From contig NZ_CP134949.1 of NCBI RefSeq assembly GCF_032116555.1, forward strand, positions 1,860,001 through 1,924,000: a stretch of 64,000 bases of DNA. Direction: 5' to 3'. Made by a program: the position numbers and the translations under genes. Positions 50,625 through 55,504 of this stretch are shown in pieces (the first letter of the stretch is position 1; each line of letters starts with the position of its first letter). The notes under the pieces were generated by a model. The model searched no databases and had not been told where the DNA came from. It saw only the letters and a program-made list of their open reading frames with translations. The stretch is from Halobaculum sp. XH14. GTDB lineage: Archaea; Halobacteriota; Halobacteria; Halobacteriales; Haloferacaceae.

Positions 50625-50897
50625 CTATCCGCCGCTGACGGGGGGAAACAGCGCGAGTTCGTCGCCGGAGGCCACGGGCGTCTCGAGGCCCGTCTCACGC
50701 ACCGGTTCGCCGTTCCGCAGGACGTTCACGTGGTCACGGAGTTCGCCCTCCTCGTCGAGCACTCTGTCGGCGAGCGCGGGATGGGTATCGAGCAGCACGT
50801 CGAGCGCCCCGGCGAGCGTCTCGGCGTCGCCGAGGTCGACGTCGGGTTCGCGCGTCCCGGCCGCCTCGGCGAGGTCGGCGAACAGCTTCCAGCCCAT
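50625..50897 (-). CDS. samp1: Ubiquitin-like small archaeal modifier protein SAMP1
   Basis: 90 residues from ATG 50897. MGWKLFADLAEAAG opens a MoaD/ThiS-type beta-grasp fold and the protein ends in DELALFPPVSGG, the di-glycine tail that is adenylated by the E1-like UbaA and joined to target lysines or turned into a thiocarboxylate for molybdopterin synthesis. The tail and opening match Haloferax SAMP1 as I recall it. Next to, but not in an operon with, tRNA-Val; the TrkA-like gene lies 23 nt downstream of its start region, on the same strand and upstream of it. Confidence 0.93.
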   Translation of the reverse strand: MGWKLFADLAEAAGTREPDVDLGDAETLAGALDVLLDTHPALADRVLDEEGELRDHVNVLRNGEPVRETGLETPVASGDELALFPPVSGG

Positions 50898-50920: not shown

Positions 50921-52117
50921 TCAAGAGCGTTCCGCCCCGACGGGGTCCGTCTCCGCCCCGGCCCGGTTCGCCCGCCGCTCTATCGCGCGGAGTTCCTCCG
51001 GTCGGGCGAGCACGTAGAGCGTCTCGCCGGCGGCGAGTCGACGCGAGTGCCCCGGAATCGTCTCAACTGGGCCTTCGACCGGCCGGACCGCGACGACGGT
51101 GCTCCCGACGGCTTCGATCGTGCCGCCGGCCAGTTCGCTCCCCTCGTCGAGGGCCACGACGTTCATCGTCTCGTCCGCGGCCCGCAGGAGGGACGCGAAC
51201 TCGCGGTCCGCCCGCGGGTCCGCCGGCAACGTGACGAGCCGGTAGGACCGGGCCGGGTCGAACGACCCCGCCTCCGACTCGTCGACGGCCAGCGTCACCA
51301 CGTCGCCGGCGGTCCCGCGGAGTTCGGCGCTGCCGACGCGTTCCGGCTCCGGGCCCTCCGTCCAGACCTGGACGCTCTCGCCGGGCGTCGCGCCGTTGGG
51401 CGGGTCGGCCCGCACGGCCACGGCGCACGTTCCGGGGCCCAGCGTCGGCCCGAGTCCCGCGACGCGTGCGCCGACGGCGAGCCTCGTGACGGTCTCGCCG
51501 TCCATCTCCACGTCGACGTGGCCGACGCCGTACTCCTCCTTGAGCCGATCGAGGAGGCGGTCACGGAGCGTCCCCGCTCCCCCGCGACGGGGGAACAGCA
51601 GCGTCGTCCCGGCGAAGCGGTCGACGGTCGCGGCCGGGACCGGGTCGTAGCCGTCGATGGTCCCGACGTCCTCGGGCAGTTCGACCGCCGTGACCCGGCC
51701 CAGGATCCGGACGACGCGGCCGACCTCGCCCTCGACCCGCTCTGCACCCGCGACCGCCACCGTGTCGGTGATCGCCCGGTCGGTGATCCGACGGCCGACG
51801 GGCGCGGCCAGCACCGCCGCGAAGAGGCTCACCACGTTCACGAGCACCGTCCGCGTGGCGAACGGGTCCGTCCCGCTCGTCCCGCCGATGACTTCGCCGA
51901 ACAGCCCGACCGTGTTGAGATAGAACGCGACGACGGCGACGCCGACCAGCGTCGCCAGCCCCCGCGGGATGGGCTCGCGGACGTACCACCGATAGACGAC
52001 CGAGACGACGGACGCGGCGAGCAACGAGACCGCCGCGAAGCCGACGATCCGGCCGAGTTCGACCGCTGTGAGTGCGGCCGGCGCGCCGGCAGCTTGCAGG
52101 GGAAGGAGGACGCTCAT
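50921..52117 (-). CDS. Membrane protein with RCK/TrkA-C-like domains (partner B)
   Basis: 398 residues from ATG 52117. Three hydrophobic segments (about 23-42, 55-70, 87-107), then a soluble region with PEDVGTIDGYDP, a middle module and a C-terminal TrkA-C/RCK-C-like unit (GTIEAVGSTVVAVRPVEG, and ETLYVLARPEEL). ATG 52117 overlaps the upstream stop as ATGA. RCK-C domains bind ligands such as nucleotides or ions and gate K+ channels or transporters. Together with its partner and the divergent K+ channel it may regulate potassium flux, central to a salt-in lifestyle; no experiment is implied. Confidence 0.75.
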   Translation of the reverse strand: MSVLLPLQAAGAPAALTAVELGRIVGFAAVSLLAASVVSVVYRWYVREPIPRGLATLVGVAVVAFYLNTVGLFGEVIGGTSGTDPFATRTVLVNVVSLFAAVLAAPVGRRITDRAITDTVAVAGAERVEGEVGRVVRILGRVTAVELPEDVGTIDGYDPVPAATVDRFAGTTLLFPRRGGAGTLRDRLLDRLKEEYGVGHVDVEMDGETVTRLAVGARVAGLGPTLGPGTCAVAVRADPPNGATPGESVQVWTEGPEPERVGSAELRGTAGDVVTLAVDESEAGSFDPARSYRLVTLPADPRADREFASLLRAADETMNVVALDEGSELAGGTIEAVGSTVVAVRPVEGPVETIPGHSRRLAAGETLYVLARPEELRAIERRANRAGAETDPVGAERS

Positions 52118-53409
52118 CCCGCCACCTCCGTCGTGAACTCCGCGAGTCGGGCGGGCGGGCCGACGACGATGAGGTCGCTGCCCGCGTCGAGTCGGGCGTC
52201 GCCGTCGGGCGCGACGGTCCACCCCCCGTTCCGCCGGGTCGCAAGGACCGCGACGCCGTACGTGTCTCGCACCGAGGCCTCCCCGAGCGAGCTGCCGTCG
52301 AGCACGCTCCCCTCGCCGACGGTGAGGCGGCGGAACTGATCGCCGGCCCGCCGGAGCACCGAGACGAGTTCGAACTCCCGCCGCGTCCCCCGTGACCTGA
52401 CGATCAACCGTCTCGGCTCGGAACGGAGCACTGCGGTCGCGGACTGTCGGTCGAGCGCGACCGTCACCCGGCCGACCCCGCCGGTCGTCGTCGGCGATGC
52501 GGGAGGGGAACCCGACGGGGCCGTCCCGGTTTCTCCGTCGTCGGTGCCGCCGTCGGTCGCAGGAGTCCCGTCCCCGACCCCGTCGCTCCTGCTCCCGTTC
52601 ACCCGATGGCCGGCGGCGGCGCTCGTGTCGCCCTCGGGCGAGGAGCGGGCGGCGACGACGGAGCCCCGGTACTCGCCGCCGTCGGTCACGACCGTGACGG
52701 CCTCGCCCCGGGCCATCCCGGTCGGCACGAGTCCCGAGAACGACACGGCCCGTTTCCCCGGGGGGACGCGCTTCGAGACGCTCCCGACCGGCGGGGCGGC
52801 GGCGACGGTCGCGCGACCCCGCTCGTCGAGGCGAACGGTCGCGTCCGCGAGGTCGAACTCGGTGCGGAGTCGCGCGGTCACCCTCGATTCGAGTTCGACT
52901 ACCGGCAGTTCCGCCGGGAACGTGTCGGCGAACTCGCCGATCGACGCCCGGAGATCGGTCGGAAGCGAAGGGTAGCCCTCCATGTCGGCCACCTCGCCCG
53001 CGACGGTGACGCGAACCTGCCCGCGACCGCCGACCAGTTCGACGACGTCCGTGGAGATGGTCCGCTCGGTGAGCGCTCGCAAGGAGAGCCGCTTTGGCAC
53101 CGACGCGCCCATCGCGTCGCCCTTCGCGTGGGCGTACAGCGACAGCATCAGGATGACGACGATGCCGACCAGCAGCGCCGTCTCGTTCGCTGAACTGGCG
53201 ACGCTCTCGTCGGTGAGCGCGAGCAACCCGCCGTTGACCCCGGCGATGGCGAGCGCGAGGACCACCACGCCAAACCCCGGGATCGTCACCCCGGTGAAGT
53301 ACTTGAACGTGAACCCGAGCCCCCACGCGACGAGCGCCGGGATGATCCCCGTGAGCAGGCCGAGATAGACGCCCAGAAGGACCTGCACGGGGAACGATGG
53401 TGCCGGCAT
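52114..53409 (-). CDS. Membrane protein with RCK/TrkA-C-like domains (partner A)
   Basis: 431 residues. Hydrophobic segments at about 8-31, 43-62 and 75-93, followed by a soluble region (100-250), a low-complexity Asp/Gly/Thr linker (about 255-305) and a C-terminal TrkA-C-like unit (SVLDGSSLGEASVRDTYGVA, then GSDLIVVGP). It shares the layout of the next gene, so the two probably arose by duplication and form one complex. It is divergent from the K+ channel gene across 134 nt. Confidence 0.78.
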   Translation of the reverse strand: MPAPSFPVQVLLGVYLGLLTGIIPALVAWGLGFTFKYFTGVTIPGFGVVVLALAIAGVNGGLLALTDESVASSANETALLVGIVVILMLSLYAHAKGDAMGASVPKRLSLRALTERTISTDVVELVGGRGQVRVTVAGEVADMEGYPSLPTDLRASIGEFADTFPAELPVVELESRVTARLRTEFDLADATVRLDERGRATVAAAPPVGSVSKRVPPGKRAVSFSGLVPTGMARGEAVTVVTDGGEYRGSVVAARSSPEGDTSAAAGHRVNGSRSDGVGDGTPATDGGTDDGETGTAPSGSPPASPTTTGGVGRVTVALDRQSATAVLRSEPRRLIVRSRGTRREFELVSVLRRAGDQFRRLTVGEGSVLDGSSLGEASVRDTYGVAVLATRRNGGWTVAPDGDARLDAGSDLIVVGPPARLAEFTTEVAG

Positions 53410-53513
53410 ACTCGGGGGTGTTCGCGGGGGACCAAATCCCTACCGACACTCCGATCGCCTCCCGACCGGGGAGGCGGTGTCGCCGCCGGCCCCGCCGTTC
53501 CGAAGGGGCGAGG

Positions 53514-53520
53514 TTTAAAG
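53514..53520 (+). promoter_or_regulatory. TATA box of K+ channel gene
   Basis: The bases tttaaag are centred 27 nt upstream of ATG 53544, supporting that start and a leaderless mRNA. Confidence 0.65.
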
Positions 53521-53543
53521 CGTCGGCACCGGTCCATCGGGAC

Positions 53544-54743
53544 ATGGCGGAGTGGCGGGACCGGCTCGGCGGGCACGTGACGGTGATGCTCACCGGCGTG
53601 ACGGCGCTGCTGTCGGTCGGCATCGGCATCCTGAACATCACGACCCAGCCGAGCGGACCGCTCGTGGACGTGCTCCCGCCGACGGTCGTCCAGACGGCCG
53701 GCTTCACCGGCGCGCTGACCGGCTTTCTCCTGCTCGGGTCGGCGTACGGACTCCGTCGGGGCTACCGCGGCGCGTGGTACTCGACGATCCTGCTGTTGCC
53801 GCTCTCGGCGGCCCAGGGACTCTTGCAGGCGAGCGCGTACTCGTACCCGCTCGTCGGCCTCTCGCTGCTTTCGCTTCCGATCGTCGGGCTCAACCGTCGA
53901 CTGTTCGAGCGGGACGTCGACCTGAGCCTCACCCAGTGGGCGTCGCTCTCGGCGCTCGTCGGCGCGCTGGGCTACAGCACCGCCGGGACGTTCGCGCTAC
54001 GCGAGCAGTTCAACGGCGTGGACACGCTCCTCGACGCGCTGTACTTCTCCATCGTGACGGCGACGACGGTCGGCTACGGCGACGTGACCCCGGCCTCGGG
54101 GGCGGAGGGGCAACTCGCGAAGTGGTTCGCGCTCTCGGCGCTCGTGCTCAACGTCGCCGCCTTCGCCGTCGCGCTGGGGGTCCTCATCACGCCGGCCATC
54201 GAGGCACGACTCGCGACCGCACTCGGACGCATGACAGAGACAGACATCGACATCCTCGAACGGCACGTCCTCGTGCTCGGCCACGGGGAACTGACGGAAC
54301 CGATCGTCGAAGAACTCACCGAGGCGAACGTCGACTTCCTCGTCATCACGCCCGACGAGGACGTCGCGCGCGGCCTCCGCGAGCGCGAGTTGAACGTGTT
54401 GACCGCCGACCCCTCAGACGAGGGGACGCTCGAACGCGCGAAGGTCGGGGAGGCCCGCGCCGTGGTGACCGCGACGAACAACGACGCCGAGGACGCGCTC
54501 TCGATCCTGACGGCTCGACAGCTCAACCCCGAAGTCGCCATCGTCGCCGCCGCGAGCGACCGGGAGAACGTCAACAAGCTGAAGCGGGCCGGCGCGAACA
54601 CGGTCATCTCGCCCGCGAGCATCGGGGGACACCTGCTCGTCGAGTCGGCGCTCCAGCGCGGCGACTCGGAGGCGCTGGCGCGTGAACTCCTGGACCAACC
54701 GGACGAAGCGACCGAGGGTCCGGGCGGCGACGACGGGGAGTAG
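53544..54743 (+). CDS. Potassium channel with TrkA-N (RCK) domain
   Basis: 399 residues. Several hydrophobic segments (about 12-30, 50-70, 78-92, 100-116, 134-150) precede the pore: selectivity filter TVGYGD (175-180) and an inner helix (about 193-215). The cytoplasmic part begins at HVLVLGHGELTEPIV (241-255), a Rossmann RCK/TrkA-N domain with a GxGxxx loop, predicted to bind NAD(H) or another nucleotide and gate the pore. Extra N-terminal membrane segments before the pore distinguish it from a minimal two-TM MthK-like channel. The C-terminal tail is acidic. Confidence 0.9.
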   Translation: MAEWRDRLGGHVTVMLTGVTALLSVGIGILNITTQPSGPLVDVLPPTVVQTAGFTGALTGFLLLGSAYGLRRGYRGAWYSTILLLPLSAAQGLLQASAYSYPLVGLSLLSLPIVGLNRRLFERDVDLSLTQWASLSALVGALGYSTAGTFALREQFNGVDTLLDALYFSIVTATTVGYGDVTPASGAEGQLAKWFALSALVLNVAAFAVALGVLITPAIEARLATALGRMTETDIDILERHVLVLGHGELTEPIVEELTEANVDFLVITPDEDVARGLRERELNVLTADPSDEGTLERAKVGEARAVVTATNNDAEDALSILTARQLNPEVAIVAAASDRENVNKLKRAGANTVISPASIGGHLLVESALQRGDSEALARELLDQPDEATEGPGGDDGE

Positions 54744-54778: not shown

Positions 54779-55504
54779 CTACAGGCTAGCGACTGCCTCC
54801 AGCGTGAGCGCGATGGCGCGGCCCACGTTGTTCCTCGCCTTCTCCGGGAGTTCCTCGTCCGAGTCGGCCCCCTTCTGGGTGCCGGCGACGAGGTTGCCGT
54901 CCGCGGTACAGATCGCGCCGGCGTCCATCCCGCGGCGGCGTGCGAGCGAGAAGACCGCCGCCGCCTCCATCTCGATGGCGAGCAGGCCGGCCGCCTCCCA
55001 GTCCTCGACGTACTCGTCGGACTCGTTGTAGAACGCGTCGTCGGAGACGATCGGGCCGACGTGTACCTCCTCGCCGCTGGCCTCCGCGGCGTCGACGAGC
55101 GCGGTCAGCGTGTCGTAATCGGGGACGGCCGGGTAGGTCGCGGACTCGTAGCGCTTGCTCGTTCCCTCCTCCTTTGCCGCGCCGGTGGCGACGACCATGT
55201 CGCCGACCTCGACGTCCGTCTGGAGGCCGCCGCAGGTGCCGACGCGAATGACCGTCTCGACGCCGACGTTGGCGAGTTCCTCGATGGCGATCGCGGCGGA
55301 CGGACAGCCGATGCCGGTCGAGCAGATCGTGAGCGGCCGGCCGTCGTACTCGGCGTTGACGATGCGGTACTCGCGGTTCTCCGAGACGAGCTCCGCGTTC
55401 TCACACTGGTCCGCGATGCGGTCGACGCGGTCGGGGTTCCCCGGGATGAGCGCGACGTCGTGGACGTCGCCCTCCTCGACGAGGAGATGGGGCTGTTTTG
55501 CCAT
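54779..55504 (-). CDS. udp: Nucleoside phosphorylase, uridine phosphorylase type
   Basis: 241 residues. Family motifs: LIPGNPDRVDRI, CSTGIGCPSAAIAIEELA (phosphate site), IRVGTCGGLQ and AIEMEAAAVFSLA near the C-terminus. Cleaves a nucleoside with phosphate to base and sugar-1-phosphate for salvage. Whether uridine or a purine nucleoside is preferred cannot be decided by eye. A T-rich ctttttg box about 27 nt upstream on the minus strand fits a separate promoter. Confidence 0.9.
   Translation of the reverse strand: MAKQPHLLVEEGDVHDVALIPGNPDRVDRIADQCENAELVSENREYRIVNAEYDGRPLTICSTGIGCPSAAIAIEELANVGVETVIRVGTCGGLQTDVEVGDMVVATGAAKEEGTSKRYESATYPAVPDYDTLTALVDAAEASGEEVHVGPIVSDDAFYNESDEYVEDWEAAGLLAIEMEAAAVFSLARRRGMDAGAICTADGNLVAGTQKGADSDEELPEKARNNVGRAIALTLEAVASL

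Follow-up and report, generated by a model that had tools for sequence, protein, structure and literature searches.

Two paralogous membrane proteins encoded side by side in Halobaculum sp. XH14, here called A and B, are probably regulators of the K+ channel encoded next to them or of related K+ transport. The arrangement, found in the window (the 64,000-nucleotide stretch of DNA analysed here; Table 1), recurs throughout the class Halobacteria, a recurrence that excludes chance. Its two sides are complementary, in that the channels hold an RCK_N (TrkA_N) domain without RCK_C (TrkA_C) and A and B hold RCK_C without RCK_N. The class-wide pair has no specific Pfam or NCBIfam family. The open-licence literature yielded no paper about these proteins; the only match there for ‘TrkA C-terminal domain’ together with haloarchaea, PMC1906763, concerns a transcription regulator.

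Table 1 Features of the A/B locus in the window.
Feature	Position	Strand	Basis
Gene for SAMP1 (ubiquitin-like small modifier), next after B	50625..50897	-	NCBIfam
Gene B: 398 aa, 3 TM + soluble region + RCK_C	50921..52117	-	AlphaFold model, fold comparison, hydrophobicity
B RCK_C fold, residues 314-386, pocket segment shortened	50960..51178	-	VIA-align; deletion in A/B alignment
B beta-barrel domain, about residues 230-296	51230..51430	-	AlphaFold model
B alpha/beta domain, about residues 142-216	51470..51694	-	AlphaFold model; aligns with A counterpart
B hydrophobic N-terminal part, residues 14-109	51791..52078	-	
ATGA shared by the A stop codon and the B start codon (translational coupling)	52114..52117	-	
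Gene A: 431 aa, 3 TM + soluble region + RCK_C	52114..53409	-	Pfam, AlphaFold model, hydrophobicity
A RCK_C (TrkA_C) domain, residues 356-431	52117..52344	-	Pfam + VIA-align
A RCK_C segment, residues 375-388, matching the KtrA/BusR c-di-AMP pocket stretch	52246..52287	-	Alignment
A beta-barrel domain, about residues 219-337; disordered insert about 257-306	52399..52755	-	AlphaFold model
A alpha/beta domain, about residues 131-205	52795..53019	-	AlphaFold model
A hydrophobic N-terminal part, residues 5-98, with conserved KYFTGVTIPG and AIAGVNGGLL	53116..53397	-	
Intergenic A-channel region; TTTAAA at 53514-53519, TATA-like on visual inspection, ~27 bases ahead of the channel ATG	53410..53543	.	
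Divergent Kch-like K+ channel: 6 TM, TVGYGD filter, TrkA_N (RCK_N), without RCK_C	53544..54743	+	
Channel TrkA_N domain	54267..54614	+	Pfam

A paralogous pair ending in RCK_C

An initial sequence-only reading described two coupled genes sharing one layout of three transmembrane segments, a soluble region and a TrkA-C-like end, and this description holds. A and B are paralogous over their full length (hhalign 99.9%, E 1.5e-35), which accounts for the common layout, and each has three hydrophobic segments (residues 5-36, 35-67 and 69-98 in A; 14-46, 49-78 and 85-109 in B) with which the N-terminal helices of the AlphaFold models agree. The charge distribution predicts that the N termini lie outside and the C termini inside. 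The two genes stand together, with A upstream, at all 80 loci compared (the window and L092-L170, one of them cut by a contig edge) and likewise at 80 of 80 in the named-locus set, where A is split in L235; with start codons chosen by rule, the 4-base overlap is present at 51 of the 80 named loci.

The TrkA-C-like ends proved real in both proteins. The profile search that the sequence-only reading had proposed for TrkA_C and pore domains places A well over the Pfam cut-off (E 2.3e-12) and B under it (19.4 bits, cut-off 27), and returns no pore domain. Comparison of the AlphaFold models by VIA-align identifies the RCK_C fold in residues 356-431 of A (Z 14.4 to 2bko and 7ahm, rmsd 1.1) and 314-386 of B (Z 11.7 to 2bko, rmsd 1.8; Z 11.4 to 7ahm), and TrkA_C is matched at E up to 0.1 in 56 of 57 B orthologues. 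Matches to RCK_C dominated the fold searches of A and B, whose results bear on that domain and on a small part of the barrel. Profile matches to the barrel are weak, namely RcpC/CpaB in 21 of 63 A orthologues (best E 0.0031), RcpC in 5 of 57 B orthologues (best E 0.00075) and SMUBP-2 1B-like in 25 of 57 B orthologues; residues 221-302 of B align with RcpC 9gzr at Z 8.1, a score level rated common by VIA-align.

Neither protein appeared at the outset to have a filter or transporter core of its own, and the searches agree. Pfam and NCBIfam profiles matched no Ion_trans, pore or transporter family in A, B or their orthologues, and no K+ filter-like motif occurs in the A or B sequences, which rules out that either protein is itself a K+ channel or belongs to a named transporter type. 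TrkA_N was not matched in A or B and is absent among the families listed for the orthologues.

The divergent channel and its surroundings

The facing gene (P0003) had been read as a channel with a TVGYGD filter and a TrkA-N domain, an identification confirmed by Pfam (Ion_trans_2 and TrkA_N) and by the filter in its sequence. Its start is most likely 53544, not 53397. The best NCBIfam model, PRK10537 (voltage-gated K+ channel), scores 163 bits against a curated cut-off of 425, so the Kch-type name is given by likeness only. Searches for RCK_C in the channel orthologues gave nothing significant, the 2 hits among 152 sequences being other TrkA-type proteins. On the other side of the pair, the small modifier gene is assigned by profile (NCBIfam SAMP1, 116.9 bits, cut-off 60) and has a homologue at 110 of 140 loci; it disappears more often than the channel, and is probably a conserved neighbour outside the mechanism.

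Distribution and gene order across Halobacteria

Conservation of the neighbourhood, on which the sequence-only reading depended, is extensive. The channel adjoins the B gene in 101 of the 119 genomes with a B match (99 of 114 after removal of 2 genomes with remnants only and 3 with the diverged clade only), the pair standing apart from it in the other 18. Across the same flanks of 80 named loci, the channel is found at 76, SAMP1 at 66 and a nucleoside phosphorylase at 35, which makes the channel the most stable neighbour of the pair. The reading had also named in advance two kinds of result that would count against it, homology to a known transporter or to proteins unrelated to RCK domains, and a neighbourhood without conservation; with RCK_C real, no known transporter matched and gene order conserved, neither was found.

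Phylogenetic co-occurrence, also proposed as a check, says little, because every genome sampled has the channel (145 of 145), and we dropped it as proof of a link. About 26 of the 145 genomes keep the channel without the pair, which has been lost many times (a quickly built tree of the channel forces at least 10 label changes); the channel thus works without the pair. Pair-less channels match the others in length (median 392 aa against 391 aa) and likewise lack RCK_C, so there is no obvious compensation for the loss; gain of RCK_C as compensation is ruled out, RCK_C profiles having found none. A mirror-tree test, weak because it was limited to the 29 loci, out of 74 usable, at which both control genes are also present, gave an A-channel distance correlation of partial r 0.51 (29 taxa), with shared phylogeny controlled only through those two genes.

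Among the matches listed from 392 genomes of the phylum, full-length relatives are confined to Halobacteria, and the best B match outside the class (E 1.1e-8) covers positions 285-383 only. Relatives 39-40% identical to A lie on 4 haloarchaeal plasmids under the RefSeq name ‘TrkA C-terminal domain-containing protein’, which describes one domain and captures neither the pairing, the transmembrane part, the barrel nor the context. An independent connection to K+ comes from 4 genomes, belonging to two families, where genes for CPA2 antiporters and for KhtT-like TrkA_C proteins adjoin the pair; two of these genomes have KhtT immediately upstream of A, in the same orientation, and the channel in the same block. 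One monophyletic, diverged clade of the pair has moved to a separate, non-K+ neighbourhood, a HerA/type-IV-pilus-like locus with genes for HerA-like, type II/IV secretion ATPase (T2SSE-like), DUF7382, DUF7311 and MinD-like proteins, which indicates that the module is not tied to K+.

A candidate ligand pocket

Haloferax volcanii makes c-di-AMP, which is linked to osmoregulation, and the targets of c-di-AMP in Haloferax were called unknown in 2019 (PMC6741144). The Halobaculum sp. XH14 genome encodes a DAC domain (diadenylate cyclase gene). In the PDB, the sequence closest to the A profile is that of a KtrA RCK_C solved with c-di-AMP (E 1.5e-7). With the BusR c-di-AMP pocket residues as given in a passage of PMC8517857, 55 of 63 close A orthologues retain the signature of this pocket, which in receptors of the RCK_C type lies at the dimer interface. 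It is absent from all 10 channel-linked family-f4 sequences examined, from both f9 sequences and from the whole diverged clade (0 of 14), and the pocket segment is missing from B in the A/B alignment. In alignment with A, GsuK, which is not known to bind c-di-AMP, carries the same signature. Because GsuK has the signature and it has disappeared from entire groups of A, we do not treat it as decisive for c-di-AMP.

Models for the function of the pair

We tentatively favour a model in which K+ flux is regulated by a membrane-embedded complex, with A and B as its two subunits, that acts on the channel and, in some lineages, on KhtTU-like antiporters. Each protein would be anchored by three transmembrane helices, with the alpha/beta, beta-barrel and RCK_C domains in the cytoplasm, and A would most likely pair with B because RCK_C is a dimer-forming sensor domain in known relatives. 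The two would probably act on the Kch-like channel, holder of the RCK_N half without the RCK_C half, and in some lineages probably on K+/H+ antiporters of the KhtTU type. Repeated loss of the pair from genomes that retain the channel, and the relocated clade, speak against a role dedicated strictly to the channel. The RCK_C domain of A may bind a small cytoplasmic ligand, for which c-di-AMP is the foremost candidate; binding would change the arrangement of A and B and so alter transporter opening. A more specific proposal is that a gating ring is split between the channel, which has its RCK_N part, and A and B, which would contribute the RCK_C part in trans from the membrane, with the RCK_C domain of A as a c-di-AMP receptor; this strikes us as very doubtful.

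Known systems offer partial parallels. Like A and B, KhtT, the RCK_C subunit of the KhtTU K+/H+ antiporter, has RCK_C at the C terminus of a chain of its own that lacks RCK_N, and its fold (7ahm) is among the best matches for both; however, KhtT is soluble and about 170 aa long, whereas A and B are membrane-anchored, about twice that length, paralogous and usually beside a channel. KhtT binds and activates a CPA2 antiporter, and A and B may act in a similar way. The gating rings of KtrA, MthK and GsuK share RCK_C and a role beside K+ channels, but combine RCK_N and RCK_C in one chain, the two halves being divided here between channel and pair. The E. coli Kch-type channel resembles the neighbouring channel in its 6 TM and TrkA_N; what is new here is the pair of accessory genes.

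It is also conceivable, although on balance unlikely, that A and B form a membrane sensor pair for other K+ transport, such as KhtTU-like CPA2 antiporters, with the channel co-regulated and untouched. The KhtT and CPA2 genes beside the pair in two families, the genomes in which the pair lies away from the channel and the persistence of the channel without the pair would all fit; against this, antiporters adjoin the pair in those 4 genomes only, and its neighbour in the large majority is the channel. The secretion-type surroundings of the diverged clade, the weak similarity of the barrel to RcpC/CpaB of the Tad pilus and the conservation of SAMP1 and nucleoside phosphorylase in the same block point instead to a general membrane scaffold or signalling module, related to the cell surface or to secretion, whose link to the channel is inherited gene order. 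We consider this improbable, as adjacency to the channel outlasts that to the other neighbours and the pocket segment of RCK_C is gone from the diverged clade, as if that clade had departed from the ancestral role.

The Gly/Pro-rich conserved transmembrane stretches of A (KYFTGVTIPG and AIAGVNGGLL), and the fact that transport proteins are the usual carriers of RCK_C, could suggest that A and B together make a novel six-TM transporter or channel gated by its own RCK_C. The failure of A and B to match any transporter or pore family, their lack of a filter-like motif and the lower conservation of the transmembrane part of B make this highly improbable.

Implications for K+ control in haloarchaea

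Haloarchaea hold molar internal K+ against outside salt, and little is known of how their K+ channels are controlled. The pair illustrates clearly how an RCK_C module was taken up into membrane-embedded subunits that are paralogous, and afterwards relocated to another locus. If the trans-ring proposal were true, with A as c-di-AMP receptor, A would be the missing target through which c-di-AMP is tied to the osmoregulation of salt-in archaea. A class-wide pair with a sensor domain absent from the adjacent channel is a direct, deletable candidate for K+ channel control.

RCK_N and RCK_C on separate proteins at a K+ channel locus

The divergent channel P0003 contains Ion_trans_2 and TrkA_N domains and a TVGYGD motif, and its top NCBIfam model, the Kch-type PRK10537, scores below the cut-off. 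It faces genes A and B, which overlap by four bases (ATGA, 52114-52117) in a window of ~0.70 GC. The sequence-only reading had described paired TrkA-C-like membrane proteins beside a divergent K+ channel, and this description stands. TrkA_C is the sole Pfam match of A (E 2.3e-12) and a sub-threshold match of B; an NCBIfam search matched neither protein. AlphaFold models (pLDDT 80.1 for A and 84.9 for B) predict for both proteins three helices (or groups of helices) in the membrane, followed by an alpha/beta domain, a beta-barrel and RCK_C at the C terminus. The way these domains are placed relative to one another is unreliable, given the low overall pTM (0.38 for A, 0.40 for B). In these models the RCK_C end is clear, residues 356-431 of A and 314-386 of B matching RCK_C structures (Z 14.4, rmsd 1.1 over 76 residues, and Z 11.7, rmsd 1.8 over 72 residues, respectively). 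Since their profiles align over 341 columns at 99.9% (E 1.5e-35), A and B are paralogues.

Features of the locus (window coordinates)
Feature	Position	Strand	Length	Remark
SAMP1	50625-50897	-		directly 3' of B, on its strand
Gene B	50921-52117	-	398 aa	
Gene A	52114-53409	-	431 aa	
Channel gene P0003	53544-54743			divergent from A/B
PNP_UDP_1 phosphorylase gene	54779-55504			

Run against 152 channel-like sequences, the RCK_C profiles of A and B found nothing significant in channel orthologues, the only two significant matches (L136, L115) being other, non-orthologous TrkA-type proteins. The channel thus carries RCK_N but lacks RCK_C, and the pair, conversely, carries RCK_C but lacks RCK_N.

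The barrel weakly resembles RcpC/CpaB in 21/63 A and 5/57 B orthologues, and that of B (51230-51430) weakly resembles the SMUBP-2 1B domain in Pfam (25/57 orthologues); PDB profiles point to the same 1B domain of this helicase (SMUBP-2/IGHMBP2) with E 2.6e-6. At some loci (L122, L123, L125, L143 and named Haloarcula loci L250, L257 and L258) B has a ~200-aa acidic C-terminal tail, probably disordered.

Distribution and loss of the pair

Among 145 genomes of the class Halobacteria, the channel was matched in 145, A in 134 (many matches weak) and B in 119. In 101 of these 119 the start of the channel gene is no more than 3.7 kb from B, or in 99/114 once remnant-only (G122, G071) and diverged-clade-only genomes (G051, G118, G119) are removed. 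Of the 80 loci in a named set, all haloarchaeal by record title, 76 have the divergent channel, 66 have SAMP1 and 35 have the phosphorylase; being the best-scoring 80 of 192 relatives, this set is biased to close kin. Across 392 phylum genomes, full-length B was observed only within the class, and the matches listed outside it covered only the RCK_C end. A quick channel tree (74 sequences) requires 13 changes in pair presence, and supported branches force at least 10 of them. Pair remnants beside the channel in three genomes (G134, G122, G071), with leftovers of A or B next to an intact channel at loci L175, L171 and L191, indicate recent loss.

Other neighbours recur. SAMP1 is conserved after B, in 110/140 loci. 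An HPP-type membrane protein lies beside several channels (L131 2308-3813, L135 6832-8391 and others), with a Usp-like part in L131; in L135 its gene immediately precedes A and shares its strand.

A candidate ligand pocket in A

The top PDB profile match of A is the KtrA RCK_C solved with c-di-AMP (E 1.5e-7). The BusR c-di-AMP pocket (PMC8517857) maps to L375, G376, S379, V380, D382, V386, A387, V388 and P401 of A. These positions plus R381, our pocket signature, are found in 55/63 close orthologues, 35/56 of a broader channel-type set, 6/7 of an intermediate clade and 0/14 of a diverged clade, where the pocket segment is lost. In one family (f4) the signature is gone from the 10 channel-linked sequences and retained in three of intermediate type; in another (f9), where KhtT lies beside A, both sequences lack it. 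B has a deletion in the pocket stretch. The genome encodes one DAC domain. Because GsuK has the same signature, it is no proof of c-di-AMP binding by A.

Proposed roles of the pair

Some pairs do not adjoin the channel. In two genomes (G032, G140) the pair faces a CPA2 antiporter accompanied by a gene for a KhtT-like TrkA_C protein; in two others (G133, G059) KhtT-like, A and B are consecutive genes of a single strand, CPA2 antiporter genes diverge from them, and the channel closes the same block. These neighbours, present in two families (L152 4377-13075, L153, L136, L277), are a second, independent tie to K+ transport; L152 has KhtT-like, A and B in series with antiporters and channel opposite. 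No K+ gene was recognised near the pair in the other non-adjacent loci examined. Regulation of K+ transport other than the channel seems rather unlikely.

The diverged, secondary pairs (L155-L170), monophyletic in the A tree (100/100) and the quick B tree (100), lie near HerA-like DUF87 ATPases, T2SSE-type ATPases, DUF7382, DUF7311 and MinD-like proteins, and the module can therefore be used away from K+ channels. That the pair is a general module is quite unlikely, and that it is a transporter of its own is improbable. The sequence-only proposal of a ligand-sensing complex controlling K+ flux is plausible and has gained support, chiefly from the RCK_N/RCK_C split, class-wide adjacency and the antiporter loci; A and B may form such a complex, bind a ligand and control K+ flux. 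We tentatively favour, at somewhat below even chances, a pair that would regulate K+ in contact with the channel.
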